From positions 1 to 64,000 of IMG/VR virus record IMGVR_UViG_3300014720_000030: a stretch of DNA of 64,000 nt; one strand, written 5' to 3'. This DNA is from a virus. This document shows positions 22,607-46,315 of this stretch, piece by piece (position 1 is the stretch's first letter; each line of letters starts with the position of its first letter). The position numbers and the translations under genes were made by a program. The notes below the pieces were generated by a model, which worked only from the letters and a program-made list of their open reading frames with translations, did not search any database and was not told where the DNA came from.

Positions 22607-24253
22607 TTAAAGCGTGTTAAGACCGTGTACGTATACTTTTCCGTAGAATTCTGGACGAACTACTTGCTTCGCGTAACGTGTCATGACACCTTTACGCGGA
22701 GTGAAGTTCACCGGATCATATACAAGCGGAGTCATAATTAATGGAATATAAGGAGCAAATACAGCACCTGTTTCAAGGAACTGAGAACCTCTGAAGCCCA
22801 TCAAAATTACGTTCTCTAACATGTATGGATTTTTGTATACAGTATAACGGTTATTGATTGAACCAATTTTTTGAACGCCAGCAGCAAATTCCATTTTAGT
22901 TCCATCAGTGTCGGCAGCAAATCCTGGGATAGACTCAAGGATAGTTGCAACTGCAGGAGATGTTACTAAGAAGTTAGCACCACCACGCAATGTTTTCTGA
23001 TGAATTTTATTAGATACTTTTTGCAGTTTAGTACCCAAAGTTTGGAACCAACCACCTTGAGTGCTATAGAATCCATCACCTAAATTTTGGTTAGCTGTAC
23101 CAGCAGCAAGAGTTTGGAAAGCTGAACCGTCCCATATGGTGTTGTTTCGAGCTGACCAAAATTCAGTGGTTGGAGCTGCGGCAATCAACATATCAAGGAT
23201 CTCAAGATCGATTTCCATTGATACATACTCAGAAAGCATTGAAGTCAATTCAGCTTCAGCATCAATTGAGTGGTATGCGTTCAAGTCTTGAGCAAATTCA
23301 GGTGTCCATACAGCCTTTAACTTACGTGTTTTAGCAACAATTGGGTTAGACTGCATTTCAAGATTGATTTCTGGAATATCGATATCAGTATTGTATCCGT
23401 TTCCGTAAGCACCTTTATTGTCTTCAAAATCACCTCTAGTAATATCGGTAGGCTGTTTGCTATAATTCAAACCAAAGTTACCCGCATTAATTGCTAATTG
23501 AAGTGCAGTTGCTTGAGTTGTTGTTACAACAAATGATGCAGTGTAATTGCTGTTAATTGTTGAAAATGCTTGTACTGGGGCAATTTCTGTACTAGCTGAT
23601 CCAGAACGAAATGTCCATGAACGAACTGCATATAAATCTGCATTCGTAGGAACGTTGATTGTCAACATTTTGTATGAAGCTGAACCAGAATAAGTTGAAT
23701 CTCCATTTACTTGAGCAGTGGTTGGTGTTGAACCAGTAGCTGCAGTTACAAGTGAAGATGTTTCGTTAATTGAATAACCAAAACGTCCTGCACCATAAAG
23801 ACCTCCGCTTGGATCACCAGTTGTAGTAGTAACACCAAACATTGAGTCATCTGCATTAGGAGAACCAAATGGATCACCTGTTCTGTTGTTGTTGTCGTCA
23901 TCGAATCCTGGCTGAGCTGTACCATATTTAAAGTCTAGATAAAATATAAGACCTGATGGCAAGTTCATTGGCTGAACTGAAACGAATTCTTTTGCAGCAA
24001 ATTCAGCAAAGATACGTCGTACCAATGGAAGTGCTACACCTGCCCACTCTTCAGATCCTTGTGCGGTACCTGTTTGTGAAGCTTCTTTTACTAATTGACG
24101 AGCTTGGTTCTCAAGTAACTGAGACATACCAGCACGTTCGGTCTCACCACGAAGACCTTCTAATAGACCTGTTCTTTCCCACTTTGCAGCTAAAGCTTTT
24201 GCATTGTTTCGTTGAACAAAGTCATTTGTTTGAAGTAAGTTTGAAATACTCAT
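22607..24253 (-). CDS. Major capsid protein, gp23-like
   Basis: A 548-aa HK97-fold capsid protein (T4 gp23 is 521 aa). Recognisable parts: 'EEWAGVALPLVRRIFAEFAAKEFVSVQPM' (about 68-96) with 'LPSGLIFYLDFKYGT', the gp23 N-arm and E-loop start. Later come 'EINLEMQSNPIVAKTRKLKAVWT' (about 290) and the C-terminal 'NPYMLENVILMGFRGSQFLETG' and 'RYAKQVVRPEFYGKVYVHGL'. Possible prohead-protease sites before the body are G-LLE|G at 32 and Q-LLE|N at 48. The ATG has AAAGGA within a ~30-nt A-rich leader, a strong initiation context. No late-promoter element lies directly upstream. A UUCG terminator follows. Confidence 0.96.
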   Translation of the reverse strand: MSISNLLQTNDFVQRNNAKALAAKWERTGLLEGLRGETERAGMSQLLENQARQLVKEASQTGTAQGSEEWAGVALPLVRRIFAEFAAKEFVSVQPMNLPSGLIFYLDFKYGTAQPGFDDDNNNRTGDPFGSPNADDSMFGVTTTTGDPSGGLYGAGRFGYSINETSSLVTAATGSTPTTAQVNGDSTYSGSASYKMLTINVPTNADLYAVRSWTFRSGSASTEIAPVQAFSTINSNYTASFVVTTTQATALQLAINAGNFGLNYSKQPTDITRGDFEDNKGAYGNGYNTDIDIPEINLEMQSNPIVAKTRKLKAVWTPEFAQDLNAYHSIDAEAELTSMLSEYVSMEIDLEILDMLIAAAPTTEFWSARNNTIWDGSAFQTLAAGTANQNLGDGFYSTQGGWFQTLGTKLQKVSNKIHQKTLRGGANFLVTSPAVATILESIPGFAADTDGTKMEFAAGVQKIGSINNRYTVYKNPYMLENVILMGFRGSQFLETGAVFAPYIPLIMTPLVYDPVNFTPRKGVMTRYAKQVVRPEFYGKVYVHGLNTL

Positions 24254-26276: not shown

Positions 26277-26654
26277 TTATCCAACAGAAAAATATCTATT
26301 TAAATGTTGTCCAATATTTTCATATGCTAGAGCCATTCGGTCTTGTGCTTCTTTAAGATCTCGCGCAGCTTGTTCGAAATCACGATAATCTTCATGCATT
26401 CTTTTATTACCTTTTTTATGAGCAACATTGGCCATCCAATCATCACTTTCAGTCATAATTCTATCTGCACGTTCAACTATATTTTTAACGCGTTGTGCAA
26501 TTTCTTCTAAATCACCTTTTCCATAAACCGAATCTCCCATTGCAGAAAAATTTGCAATTTCTTGTACGAATTGTTGCTTTTCTTCGCGAGTTAATGGCTT
26601 AGGTTGATCTTGCATCATAGTTTCTAAAATAAACTTTAAATTTGGTGTTCTCAT
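26277..26654 (-). CDS. Helical hypothetical protein in the head cluster (125 aa)
   Basis: Starts 'MRTPNLKFILETMM', where Ile-Leu-Glu at 9-11 fits the prohead-protease consensus. The rest is almost entirely charged helix. The start overlaps the protease stop, suggesting coupling. No known family. By position it may be a minor prohead-core or internal head protein (compare T4 gp67/gp68/IP proteins, which are small and processed by gp21). That comparison is inference. Confidence 0.75.
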   Translation of the reverse strand: MRTPNLKFILETMMQDQPKPLTREEKQQFVQEIANFSAMGDSVYGKGDLEEIAQRVKNIVERADRIMTESDDWMANVAHKKGNKRMHEDYRDFEQAARDLKEAQDRMALAYENIGQHLNRYFSVG

Positions 26655-27289
26655 TATATTATCCTACATTTACCATCTTCACATAAAATCGAAGTGATTA
26701 TTTCGTTTGTTTTTGCGTATCTATTTGTTTTTATATTATTTTTATTAACTGATTCATGCATGTGCGTAGGACGCATAAAAGCCCCGTGCGTTGATGGATT
26801 TGATACGAAGTCCCAACATATCAATTCAAAATCTTCTTGTACTTCTACTACGCCTTCATTTCGTAATTCTTTTACTGATCCCAAACCCCGTGATGAAATA
26901 CCTAATGTAATACCTGCTCTAAACAGTTCTTTAAGAATCTTACCAGATGGAGTATCTAAAATTTGTACGGCGCCGTTCAAATCATCGCCATTCCACCATA
27001 TTTTTAAAACATTGTGAGAAACGTTATTTAAGTTAACTACTGATGATTCTGGGTGATCTAATTCTCCTAATGCTCTATGTTGATTTATATATTCTTTTTG
27101 ATAACGTTGACATTCTCGTTGTAAAATATGTTTTGGATAAACACGGCCGTTTTGATTTTTAGCGCCTGCTCGTTGCAAAACACCTTGCACAACAAAACCA
27201 CCAGGTAAACCATATGCAGCACCATTTGATTCAGTTAATGAACCAATTGGCTTGAATGGCATATATTCTACTATTAGATGTTTTGACAT
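26654..27289 (-). CDS. Prohead maturation protease, gp21-like (S78-type)
   Basis: A 211-aa protein (T4 gp21 is 212 aa). Catalytic His79 lies in 'ALGELDHPESS', and the nucleophile Ser is in 'GISSRGLGSV' (Ser132/133). 'NQNGRVYP' (46-53) is the conserved substrate-channel segment. It cleaves scaffold, capsid and internal proteins after [LI]-x-E. Its own sequence has such sites at Ile-Val-Glu 8 and Leu-Thr-Glu 20, consistent with self-processing. It is flanked by prohead-core-type genes, one base after the previous stop. Confidence is high from motif, length and position. Confidence 0.95.
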   Translation of the reverse strand: MSKHLIVEYMPFKPIGSLTESNGAAYGLPGGFVVQGVLQRAGAKNQNGRVYPKHILQRECQRYQKEYINQHRALGELDHPESSVVNLNNVSHNVLKIWWNGDDLNGAVQILDTPSGKILKELFRAGITLGISSRGLGSVKELRNEGVVEVQEDFELICWDFVSNPSTHGAFMRPTHMHESVNKNNIKTNRYAKTNEIITSILCEDGKCRII

Positions 27290-43965: not shown

Positions 43966-45747
43966 TTATTCTAAAATAGATGATTCAACCCAACATATTA
44001 ATTCTATGTCTTCTTCGCCTCGTTTACCTAATATTTTAACTTTTGTATATTTATCTTTAACCTCAAATTTTTCTAATTGTTTAGTTGTTTCATCATTAAC
44101 AGTCATGGTACCTTTATTTTTAAATACAAATTTACCTTTGTCTTTTTCATATTGATAAACAGCAAACGATTTAATATCAGATCTAACTGTACCGTATTTT
44201 TTACTTACATCAATATTAAATAGTTTAATTAATTTGTCCACATCGCCTGGAGCATCAACTGTTGTCATTTTAGATATAAATTCCTGAGATGACATAGTTT
44301 TGTTTACAAGTTTTGCATGATCTGCTTTGTCAGCAACATACCATTTATTTTCTTCAATTGAATATGTATATACACGCGTATCGTCTGCCGATTGTGTGTA
44401 AACTATTTTGTTGGTTGTAGGGTCTGTATATGGATATGTAACGGGTTTTTCATATGCAATAAACTTTCCATTTTTTAGTTCTCCTGTTGCAGTATACTCG
44501 CTACTTGCATCGTTACGTTCATAATAAACTCCGTTTTTAGGTGTATCATGTCCCATAAATGTACCAGTGTATTTAAACGCATATAAGTCTGATTGATCTC
44601 GATAATAATACATAGAGCCTTTGTCGAATTCGAATTCGAATTCTGTTTCTACACGGCCGTTGGTTTTATTATACGCTGATTGTATATATATGATAGTCGT
44701 GCCTATAAATTTTGATTTATCATATTTGTTAAAATTTTTATCTATATCAAACGTAAATGTACCATCATAATATGCACCACGTTGAAATTCTCCTTCAAAT
44801 GTACCATACTTACAATTTTGTTCACAATCTTTAGGAATCCTAAATCTTCCTTTACCCTTCAGTGGAGTTAGTGAATAATACCCAGTAATTGGATCAATAC
44901 CAATGTCAGCTATTCCAGTAAAAGAAGTGTCAATATTAAAATTATCCGCCGCTGACCCCGGAGTTACGTGTTGTGATCCTAAAGTGACTTGATTTGGTTG
45001 TTTAGTTTGAAATGTAGATACATTAATTCGATTCATGAATCTAAAATCCGGCACGGAATTTAGCATTGACGTTGATTGTTTAGTTGCTGGAAAATTTTGC
45101 TCCCACCAATTCGGTGCATCTTTTTCTATAGTTTTCATTGTATCTTTTAATGCAGCTGTCCATTTAATAGCTTGTGGCTGTGTTATAACTAAAGTACTAT
45201 ATTCATCATCTGAACTAGTAAAAGATAATATATTTTTCATATACAAGCTTAGTTCACGGCTAACTGTTTTATTTAAATATCGTTTTATTAATTCTAATAA
45301 TCGACCCAACGGAGTTTCAGTCGATGTATCTACAATCCAAACTGCAAAAACCTTTCTACGATCAGTTCCTTTAGGTACACTAACAACAATTCGATAACTA
45401 TAACTATAATATTCATTTAATGTTTTATCCATTCTCATTCTATCAACAATTGCAGAAATCATTTGCTCATATGTTGGATTTTTAGATTTATCTTTTCGAA
45501 TTGCAACAACTAAAAATCCTCGAGTAGCACCATTTTCTTTAGCAGCGTTATCAATAAAATGAACACGAAGTTTTTGTAAATTGCTGTCACCATATGTTGT
45601 TTTTGGTATTTTATACACATATCCAGTTGTTGGATCAAACTCTAGATCTTTTTTCTTTTTTTTCGAATCATCATCTTCGATTAAGTGCTGTTCTAACAAT
45701 CGTTTTTGAATTAAAACTGACCGTATATATTGTTCTACTCGATTCAT
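43966..45747 (-). CDS. MORN-like repeat protein with possible capsid-targeting N-terminus (593 aa)
   Basis: Start placed at 45747 (MNRVEQYIRSVLIQK); the longer ORF would run through the promoter variant and the kinase stop. The N-terminus has Leu-Leu-Glu (17-19) and Leu-Ile-Glu (22-24) followed by DDD and a Lys-rich run, fitting a prohead-protease-processed leader. Residues ~30-230 form an unassigned alpha/beta region ('RKVFAVWIVDTST'). From ~310 there are MORN-like units ('GKGRFRIP', 'YGTFEGEFQRGAYYDGTF', 'YTGTFMG', 'ATGELKNGKF'). The C-terminus is beta-rich. I infer an ejected or internal virion protein; the function is unknown. Confidence 0.75.
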   Translation of the reverse strand: MNRVEQYIRSVLIQKRLLEQHLIEDDDSKKKKKDLEFDPTTGYVYKIPKTTYGDSNLQKLRVHFIDNAAKENGATRGFLVVAIRKDKSKNPTYEQMISAIVDRMRMDKTLNEYYSYSYRIVVSVPKGTDRRKVFAVWIVDTSTETPLGRLLELIKRYLNKTVSRELSLYMKNILSFTSSDDEYSTLVITQPQAIKWTAALKDTMKTIEKDAPNWWEQNFPATKQSTSMLNSVPDFRFMNRINVSTFQTKQPNQVTLGSQHVTPGSAADNFNIDTSFTGIADIGIDPITGYYSLTPLKGKGRFRIPKDCEQNCKYGTFEGEFQRGAYYDGTFTFDIDKNFNKYDKSKFIGTTIIYIQSAYNKTNGRVETEFEFEFDKGSMYYYRDQSDLYAFKYTGTFMGHDTPKNGVYYERNDASSEYTATGELKNGKFIAYEKPVTYPYTDPTTNKIVYTQSADDTRVYTYSIEENKWYVADKADHAKLVNKTMSSQEFISKMTTVDAPGDVDKLIKLFNIDVSKKYGTVRSDIKSFAVYQYEKDKGKFVFKNKGTMTVNDETTKQLEKFEVKDKYTKVKILGKRGEEDIELICWVESSILE

Positions 45748-45772: not shown

Positions 45773-46315
45773 TTACCAATCAATCATTACAAATTTGTTG
45801 TTCCAAATCATAACGTTGTCAGGTTTAAAATCTAAATCCAAATCTAAATCTTCAATACCAATTGATTGTATATCTTTTTGTAACGCCCGTAAAAAATTTA
45901 TCAATTTAATATCAAAATCACGTCCGCCATCTGCATCTAAATAATCAAAAATAGAAACTTCTCCGCCTTGCTTACGTGCGTATATTTTGTAAGATGAAAT
46001 AAATTGATCGATCGATTGTTTTTGATCATTTGATAAATTGTCAGCTTTTGCCATGATATACATGTTACGACCATCCACATAATATACCGGTATAAAAGTT
46101 GTATATTGTGAATAACGATCAACAATTATTTCTGCAACACGATATTCTTCAGATTCAGTTGTTATTTTAAACAATTTATCTTCGTCATCGATTTCATAAA
46201 CACGTCCATTATCTCCACTTCCAAATAATTTAAATTGTTTGTTTTGTATTTTTTGTAAAATTCGTTTTAAATCAACATCAACAATTTCATTTAATAATTT
46301 TTTAAGTCGTATCAT
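45773..46315 (-). CDS. Minimal protein-kinase-like protein with capsid-targeting-type N-terminus
   Basis: A 180-aa protein with the kinase-fold catalytic set in order. The Gly-rich loop is 'GSGDNGRVYEI' (32-42), the ATP-binding Lys is Lys50 in 'KLFKIT', and a candidate alpha-C Glu is at 57 or 62. A hinge-like 'NMYIMAKAD' follows (84-92). The catalytic loop is 'DFKPDNVMI' (D162, K164, N167) and the metal-binding Asp179 is in the terminal 'MIDW'. The chain stops there, so no C-lobe beyond the DFG position exists. The first ten residues, MIRLKKLLNE, end in Leu-Asn-Glu like a T4 capsid-targeting peptide. AAAGGA precedes the ATG. The combination suggests a kinase packaged in the head and injected, as T4 Alt is. 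That is inference. Confidence 0.8.
   Translation of the reverse strand: MIRLKKLLNEIVDVDLKRILQKIQNKQFKLFGSGDNGRVYEIDDEDKLFKITTESEEYRVAEIIVDRYSQYTTFIPVYYVDGRNMYIMAKADNLSNDQKQSIDQFISSYKIYARKQGGEVSIFDYLDADGGRDFDIKLINFLRALQKDIQSIGIEDLDLDLDFKPDNVMIWNNKFVMIDW

Follow-up and report, generated by a model that had tools for sequence, protein, structure and literature searches.

The window analysed here is a stretch of 64,000 nucleotides belonging to a 75,546-base virus record. Its minus strand carries, at 45773..46315 (stop codon included), a gene for a protein of 180 amino acids that starts at an ATG and is translated as MIRLKKLLNE...FVMIDW. A search of the record itself found one copy of this gene, the product of which we refer to as the mini-kinase. 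Twenty-eight close relatives were identified in IMG/VR, and a profile of the family matched at least 269 IMG/VR stretches; because of these relatives, and of the residues that are invariant over 62 unique full-length homologues (the set on which residue conservation was counted throughout), the open reading frame can be considered real and not a product of chance. Three of the homologue genes begin with GTG.

The window also encodes, again on the minus strand, a head maturation protease of the T4 gp21 type (26654..27289; phrog_207, E=8.3e-55), which is the presumed leader peptidase, and a gp23-type major capsid protein (22607..24253; phrog_138, E=5.3e-67) whose N-terminal sequence includes a predicted T4-like cut site, QLVKE/A. 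The mini-kinase gene adjoins DNA-metabolism genes and tail-like structural genes. Comparison with relatives places a gene for 593 amino acids (43966..45747, minus strand) in a variable slot between the mini-kinase and an endonuclease; across the window and L002, L010, L063, L065, L081, L082 and L085, this slot holds zero to two genes of about 250-940 amino acids, many with LxE-type starts. A gene for a GIY-YIG-type homing endonuclease lies at 1653-2297 of the window (phrog_314, E=2.3e-27). Outside the window, on the plus strand of the record, two tandem genes (65076-65663 and 65702-66316) share a near-identical 19-residue start, MKN[I/L]LSENMLRFGTKNLSE, followed by about 30 similar residues and by C-terminal halves that differ. 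Neither has a PHROG match, and their shared start is possibly a second class of leader.

The kinase residues named in the initial annotation are present in the translation and are backed by the homologue alignment. The glycine-rich loop, G32-S-G34-D-N-G37-R-V39, is encoded at 46199..46222, the codon for invariant Lys50 at the ATP-binding lysine position lies at 46166..46168, and the equivalent of the catalytic loop, D162-F-K-P-D-N167, occupies 45815..45832 (all minus strand). Residues G34, D35, N36, R38, Y40, K50, E54, E57, D162, N167, D179 and W180 are invariant in the 62 homologues. The assertion that every core kinase residue is present holds for the window protein but not for the family as a whole, since position 164 is Lys in 39 homologues, Ser in 11, Arg in 9 and Asn in 3; this variability fits the APH-type motif HGDxxxxN better than the HRDxKxxN motif of Ser/Thr kinases. 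The description of a very small kinase ending at the DFG position was confirmed in 62 of 62 homologues. The stop codon follows one residue past D179, and D179-W180 (45776..45781, minus strand), the DFG-position Asp and a conserved C-terminal Trp, terminate all of them, with the activation segment and the full C-terminal lobe absent. Given that Asp-Trp ends every full-length homologue, the short C-terminus is a feature of the family, and a frameshift was rejected as its cause.

Structure prediction agreed with the proposal of a kinase-like fold. AlphaFold models of the mini-kinase reached a pLDDT of 83.4 with 23 sequences and of 88.8 (pTM 0.82) with 55 sequences; in the latter, residues 1-11 were disordered (pLDDT <50) and nearly all remaining residues scored above 70. 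The top PDB matches in Foldseek were APH(2'')-IIa (E=4.0e-4), APH(2'')-IVa and CK2 (E=5.1e-4), and OspG was matched at E=0.011. The rows listed by VIA-align were kinase-fold chains throughout, with Z up to 9.0 and an rmsd of 4.1 over 125 residues, to PKR. These fold matches are moderate, and identity to the matched kinases is 11-18%. In BFVD the nearest entries were an uncultured phage protein (62% identity) and a large number of kinase-like phage proteins, some small and some large. The features that define protein kinase-like (PKL) proteins, namely an N-lobe sheet and the start of a C-lobe with GxGxxG, Lys, catalytic Asp/Asn and the DFG-position Asp, were found in the mini-kinase, and the models lead us to read it as a kinase-like fold truncated past the metal-binding Asp. 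Residues 11-180 (45776..46285, minus strand) form the predicted mature domain according to the AlphaFold models and fold searches. There was no Pfam kinase match and no PHROG match at a clear E-value (the best was phrog_18305, 'kinase', E=0.0072), and searching the PDB with a sequence profile of the family returned no confident kinase match. When the protein was compared by tblastn with 50,697 phage records, the sole match was a weak one, to a Bacillus phage kinase (E=0.7). Sub-threshold matches to Glyco_hydro_62 and S100 were rejected.

The mini-kinase may be inactive or may need a partner, because Lys164 varies among homologues and the protein lacks a C-terminal lobe with its activation segment and the helices that bind substrate. 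These same properties, together with an Asp at the position of the HRD His, would suit a packaged pseudokinase whose role, on binding nucleotide or a partner in the host, is that of an inhibitor or decoy and not of a phosphotransferase, and a packaged protein of T4, IPI, does work as a binding inhibitor (PMC3012670). However, none of G34, K50, D162, N167 and D179 varies among the 62 sequences, which would be unusual for a pseudokinase, and we regard this explanation as unlikely.

Preceding the predicted domain is a capsid-targeting-like leader, MIRLKKLLNE (codons 1-10; 46286..46315, minus strand), for which the alignment, the T4 rules and pLDDT predict a prohead-protease cut after Glu10. The consensus over the 62 homologues is MIRLKxLLxE, with positions 1-5, 7, 8 and 10 conserved and positions 6 and 9 free. 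Met1 and Leu4 occur in 62 of 62 homologues and Ile2 in 61; L/I/M-x-E occupies positions 8-10 in 58 homologues, and in 4 the leader is one residue shorter, with L-L-E at 7-9. Position 7 is encoded by TTA (22), CTT (20), TTG (7) or the Ile codon ATA (13), and the synonymous variation of leader codons indicates that selection acts on the protein. In T4 IPIII, ten residues suffice, with positions 4 and 7 serving in targeting and 8 and 10 in processing, and gp21 cleavage follows L/I-x-E (PMC9026906). The mini-kinase leader carries a hydrophobic residue at positions 4 and 7, L/I/M at 8 and Glu at 10, and the N-termini of ipII and ipIII in the T4 record read MKTYQEFIAE/A. The P1' residue is usually L, M or I in the mini-kinase family versus Ala in T4 IPII and IPIII; this counts against packaging but is not fatal, as virion proteins of the T4-like cyanophage S-CREM2 with such leaders carry F, E, A, Q and D there. 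The proposal of a 10-residue targeting leader of the T4 type has thus been strengthened by its T4 spacing, by the gp21-type protease in the genome, and by the portability of the leader and the virion proteomes of other phages, described below.

The gene adjoining the mini-kinase varies in related phages, and several unrelated versions begin with the kinase-type leader, among them an M15-peptidase-like protein (MIRLTHLLTEQ) and multidomain proteins of 900 amino acids (MIRLKSLLIEQ). At least 127 IMG/VR sites match the degenerate pattern M-I-x-[L/F]-K-x-[L/F]-[L/F]-x-E-Q, and at least 91 of them begin open reading frames of 80 amino acids or more. Among the leader-pattern frames listed, 81 of 91 have at most 20 open codons upstream, and the bodies sort, among the matches listed, into at least 45 clusters that show no BLAST similarity to one another. 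Over the entire IMG/VR collection, an equally degenerate permuted pattern matched 22 stretches, of which 3 begin such a frame. Four kinase-carrying records of 159.6, 130.6, 140.6 and 65.0 kb contain 6, 5, 3 and 3 leader genes, respectively, and the reversed pattern found none in these four. The leader is therefore shared by unrelated proteins, in kinase-carrying relatives as well as across IMG/VR. Among the bodies that carry it are glucosaminidase, LysM, peptidoglycan-binding and cell wall hydrolase proteins, as well as tRNA nucleotidyltransferase, cytidyltransferase, ADP-ribosyltransferase-like and weakly Acb1-like proteins. Mere hitchhiking of the leader with the mini-kinase was rejected, since unrelated bodies carry it. 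Within the 75.5-kb partial record that holds the window, the leader-pattern scan found no second leader protein, and only the mini-kinase gene has a plausible start that matches the pattern exactly.

Three side observations concern leaders in related records. A second kinase-like protein of 242 amino acids, with MIRLKDLLQE and LGRGANGVAY, is encoded in the kinase-carrying 140.6-kb record (L249:1501-2226). Another kinase-carrying record encodes a leader protein with a YHGSS stretch that is ART-like by eye and has no Pfam match. Leader-like segments (e.g., ESKNISLKALLFE) also recur inside the large proteins L065:6570-9296, L082:1031-3841 and L063:5266-7836, often before linkers, an arrangement reminiscent of polyproteins that are cleaved at multiple LxE sites.

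Published virion proteomes provide a link between the leader and the phage particle. Non-structural proteins detected in S-CREM2 virions include a kinase, a cytidylyltransferase, a SAM hydrolase and Cas9, and virion-associated kinases have been reported in the T4-like cyanophages S-CRM01, S-TIM5 and S-CREM2; as the S-CREM2 authors point out, virion detection can reflect carry-over (PMC10665884). The suggestion that no virion-packaged kinase had been described was consequently too strong. None was found in the form of the mini-kinase among open papers, and an earlier description may exist elsewhere. Translation of the S-CREM2 record gives the N-termini MKDFDSFLEE for the SAM hydrolase, VKRFDAFLTE for the kinase, MKNFSSFLTE for the cytidylyltransferase, MKDLHSFLTE for gp13 and MQTFSMFFSE for gp136. 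The leader pattern occurs at 6 of 219 annotated S-CREM2 starts, and five of the six belong to virion proteins, including the kinase (P=0.003; P=2.4e-4 among the 195 non-structural genes), a strong retrospective test and not a prediction, as the pattern was formalised after the N-termini were known, with its positions taken from T4. When 160 placements of three hydrophobic positions and one Glu were compared, only the T4 placement (4, 7, 8, 10) was associated with virion detection; the next best gave P=0.24. The S-CREM2 Cas9, also a virion protein (L241:7704-10313), has a leader-like PLRFASFMAEA approximately 15-25 residues into its annotated N-terminus, and its true start may lie further in or the leader may be internal. 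The virion NMNAT of S-SCSM1 begins MKSFLQFLKE/A. The cytidyltransferase T4-GC190 has been detected in S-SM1 virions (PMC3037559), and its relative in S-ShM2 begins MKKFSTFISE.

These comparisons bear on two further explanations. The N-terminal motif could be no more than an amphipathic helix or a dimerisation segment, in a phage kinase that stays in the cytoplasm and never enters the particle. An L-x-x-L-L-x-E spacing arises by chance in N-terminal helices, residues 4-24 form one helix in the second AlphaFold model (although 1-11 are of low confidence), and the gene has DNA-metabolism neighbors. Such a segment, however, would not be expected on at least 45 unrelated bodies with a nearly empty permuted control, nor would its association with virion detection be expected to depend on the T4 spacing, and we consider a cytoplasmic kinase improbable. 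Chance composition of an N-terminal helix is likewise disfavoured by the permuted and reversed patterns and by the 159 other position sets. Alternatively, the leader could direct proteins to the tail or baseplate instead of the head interior, as the leader proteins include several cell-wall enzymes (glucosaminidase, LysM, M15 peptidase, Phage_lysozyme2) of kinds more usual in tails, and the mini-kinase gene lies beside tail-like structural genes. We consider tail targeting very improbable, because the leader obeys the T4 rule for head targeting and other cargo (nucleotidyltransferases, ART-like proteins, SAM hydrolase) is not tail-like. Moreover, the virion lysozyme and DD-carboxypeptidase of S-SCSM1 (gp213/214), encoded beside baseplate genes, have no such leader; not every non-structural virion protein therefore uses one.

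The explanation we favour, and hold to be reasonably probable, is that the gene encodes a packaged mini-kinase. MIRLKKLLNE would act like a T4 capsid targeting sequence and dock the protein on the prohead scaffold, and the gp21-type protease would cut it after Glu10. The 170-residue kinase-like domain would stay in the head and be injected with the DNA; it would probably bind ATP and, soon after infection begins, phosphorylate a molecule of the host (or of the phage). Packaging appears well supported, short of proof, by the sequence and by analogy with other phages, and the case for it is stronger than that for catalysis. Should the leader prove a genuine packaging tag, sequence alone would suffice to list the preloaded proteins of many uncultured T4-like phages, and the old question of what a phage injects besides its DNA would become a testable catalogue. 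We give about even chances to the broader proposal that the 10-residue leader marks a large injected repertoire in uncultured T4-like phages (mini-kinases, ADP-ribosyltransferase-like, Acb1-like and nucleotidyltransferase proteins, and hydrolases), in which the widely conserved mini-kinase acts on host molecules at time zero.

Cargo with a capsid targeting sequence and virion-associated kinases are known classes; what is new is the minimal form of the kinase and how broad the leader repertoire is. The mini-kinase resembles T4 IPI-IPIII and Alt in its N-terminal leader, which is hydrophobic at 4, 7 and 8 and has Glu10 (as in IPII and IPIII), in sharing that leader with unrelated bodies, and in a genome that also encodes a protease of the gp21 type and a capsid protein of the gp23 type. 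It differs in that its cargo is kinase-like and not an IP or Alt, its leader is of the Leu type (MIRLKxLL versus MKTYQEFI), and its packaging is predicted. S-CREM2 gp14 is likewise a kinase-like protein of a T4-like phage with the same leader spacing, but it has 755 amino acids, whereas the minimal mini-kinase has 180 and ends at the DFG Asp. APH/choline-kinase, CK2/PKR-type kinases and the bacterial mini-kinase effector OspG match the mini-kinase in fold, and the IDWE motif of APH resembles its IDW end. OspG is also a minimal injected kinase. The phage protein is set apart from these by its low identity to them, the lack of a C-terminal substrate lobe and the absence of any sequence-level family match above curated cut-offs. 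It would be a minimal injected kinase that ends at the metal-binding Asp and is conserved across many environmental phages.

By its TerL, the phage falls near Microcystis phage Mel-JY01 (58.5%) and Flavobacterium phage immuto (54.1%). An open-paper search for immuto returned nothing on its virion proteome at the level of titles and abstracts. Immuto gp177 (QQO92333.1, annotated as hypothetical) is a protein of 146 amino acids, encoded between tail-spike and primase genes, with the leader MISIYNILKE, the Gly loop GEGDYGAVF and the end IIDV, one residue past the DFG-position Asp. It matches the mini-kinase profile over the leader and N-lobe at about 29 bits and gave no tblastn match, and we regard it as a distant homologue, a cultured one that makes the packaged mini-kinase testable and offers a practical test object.
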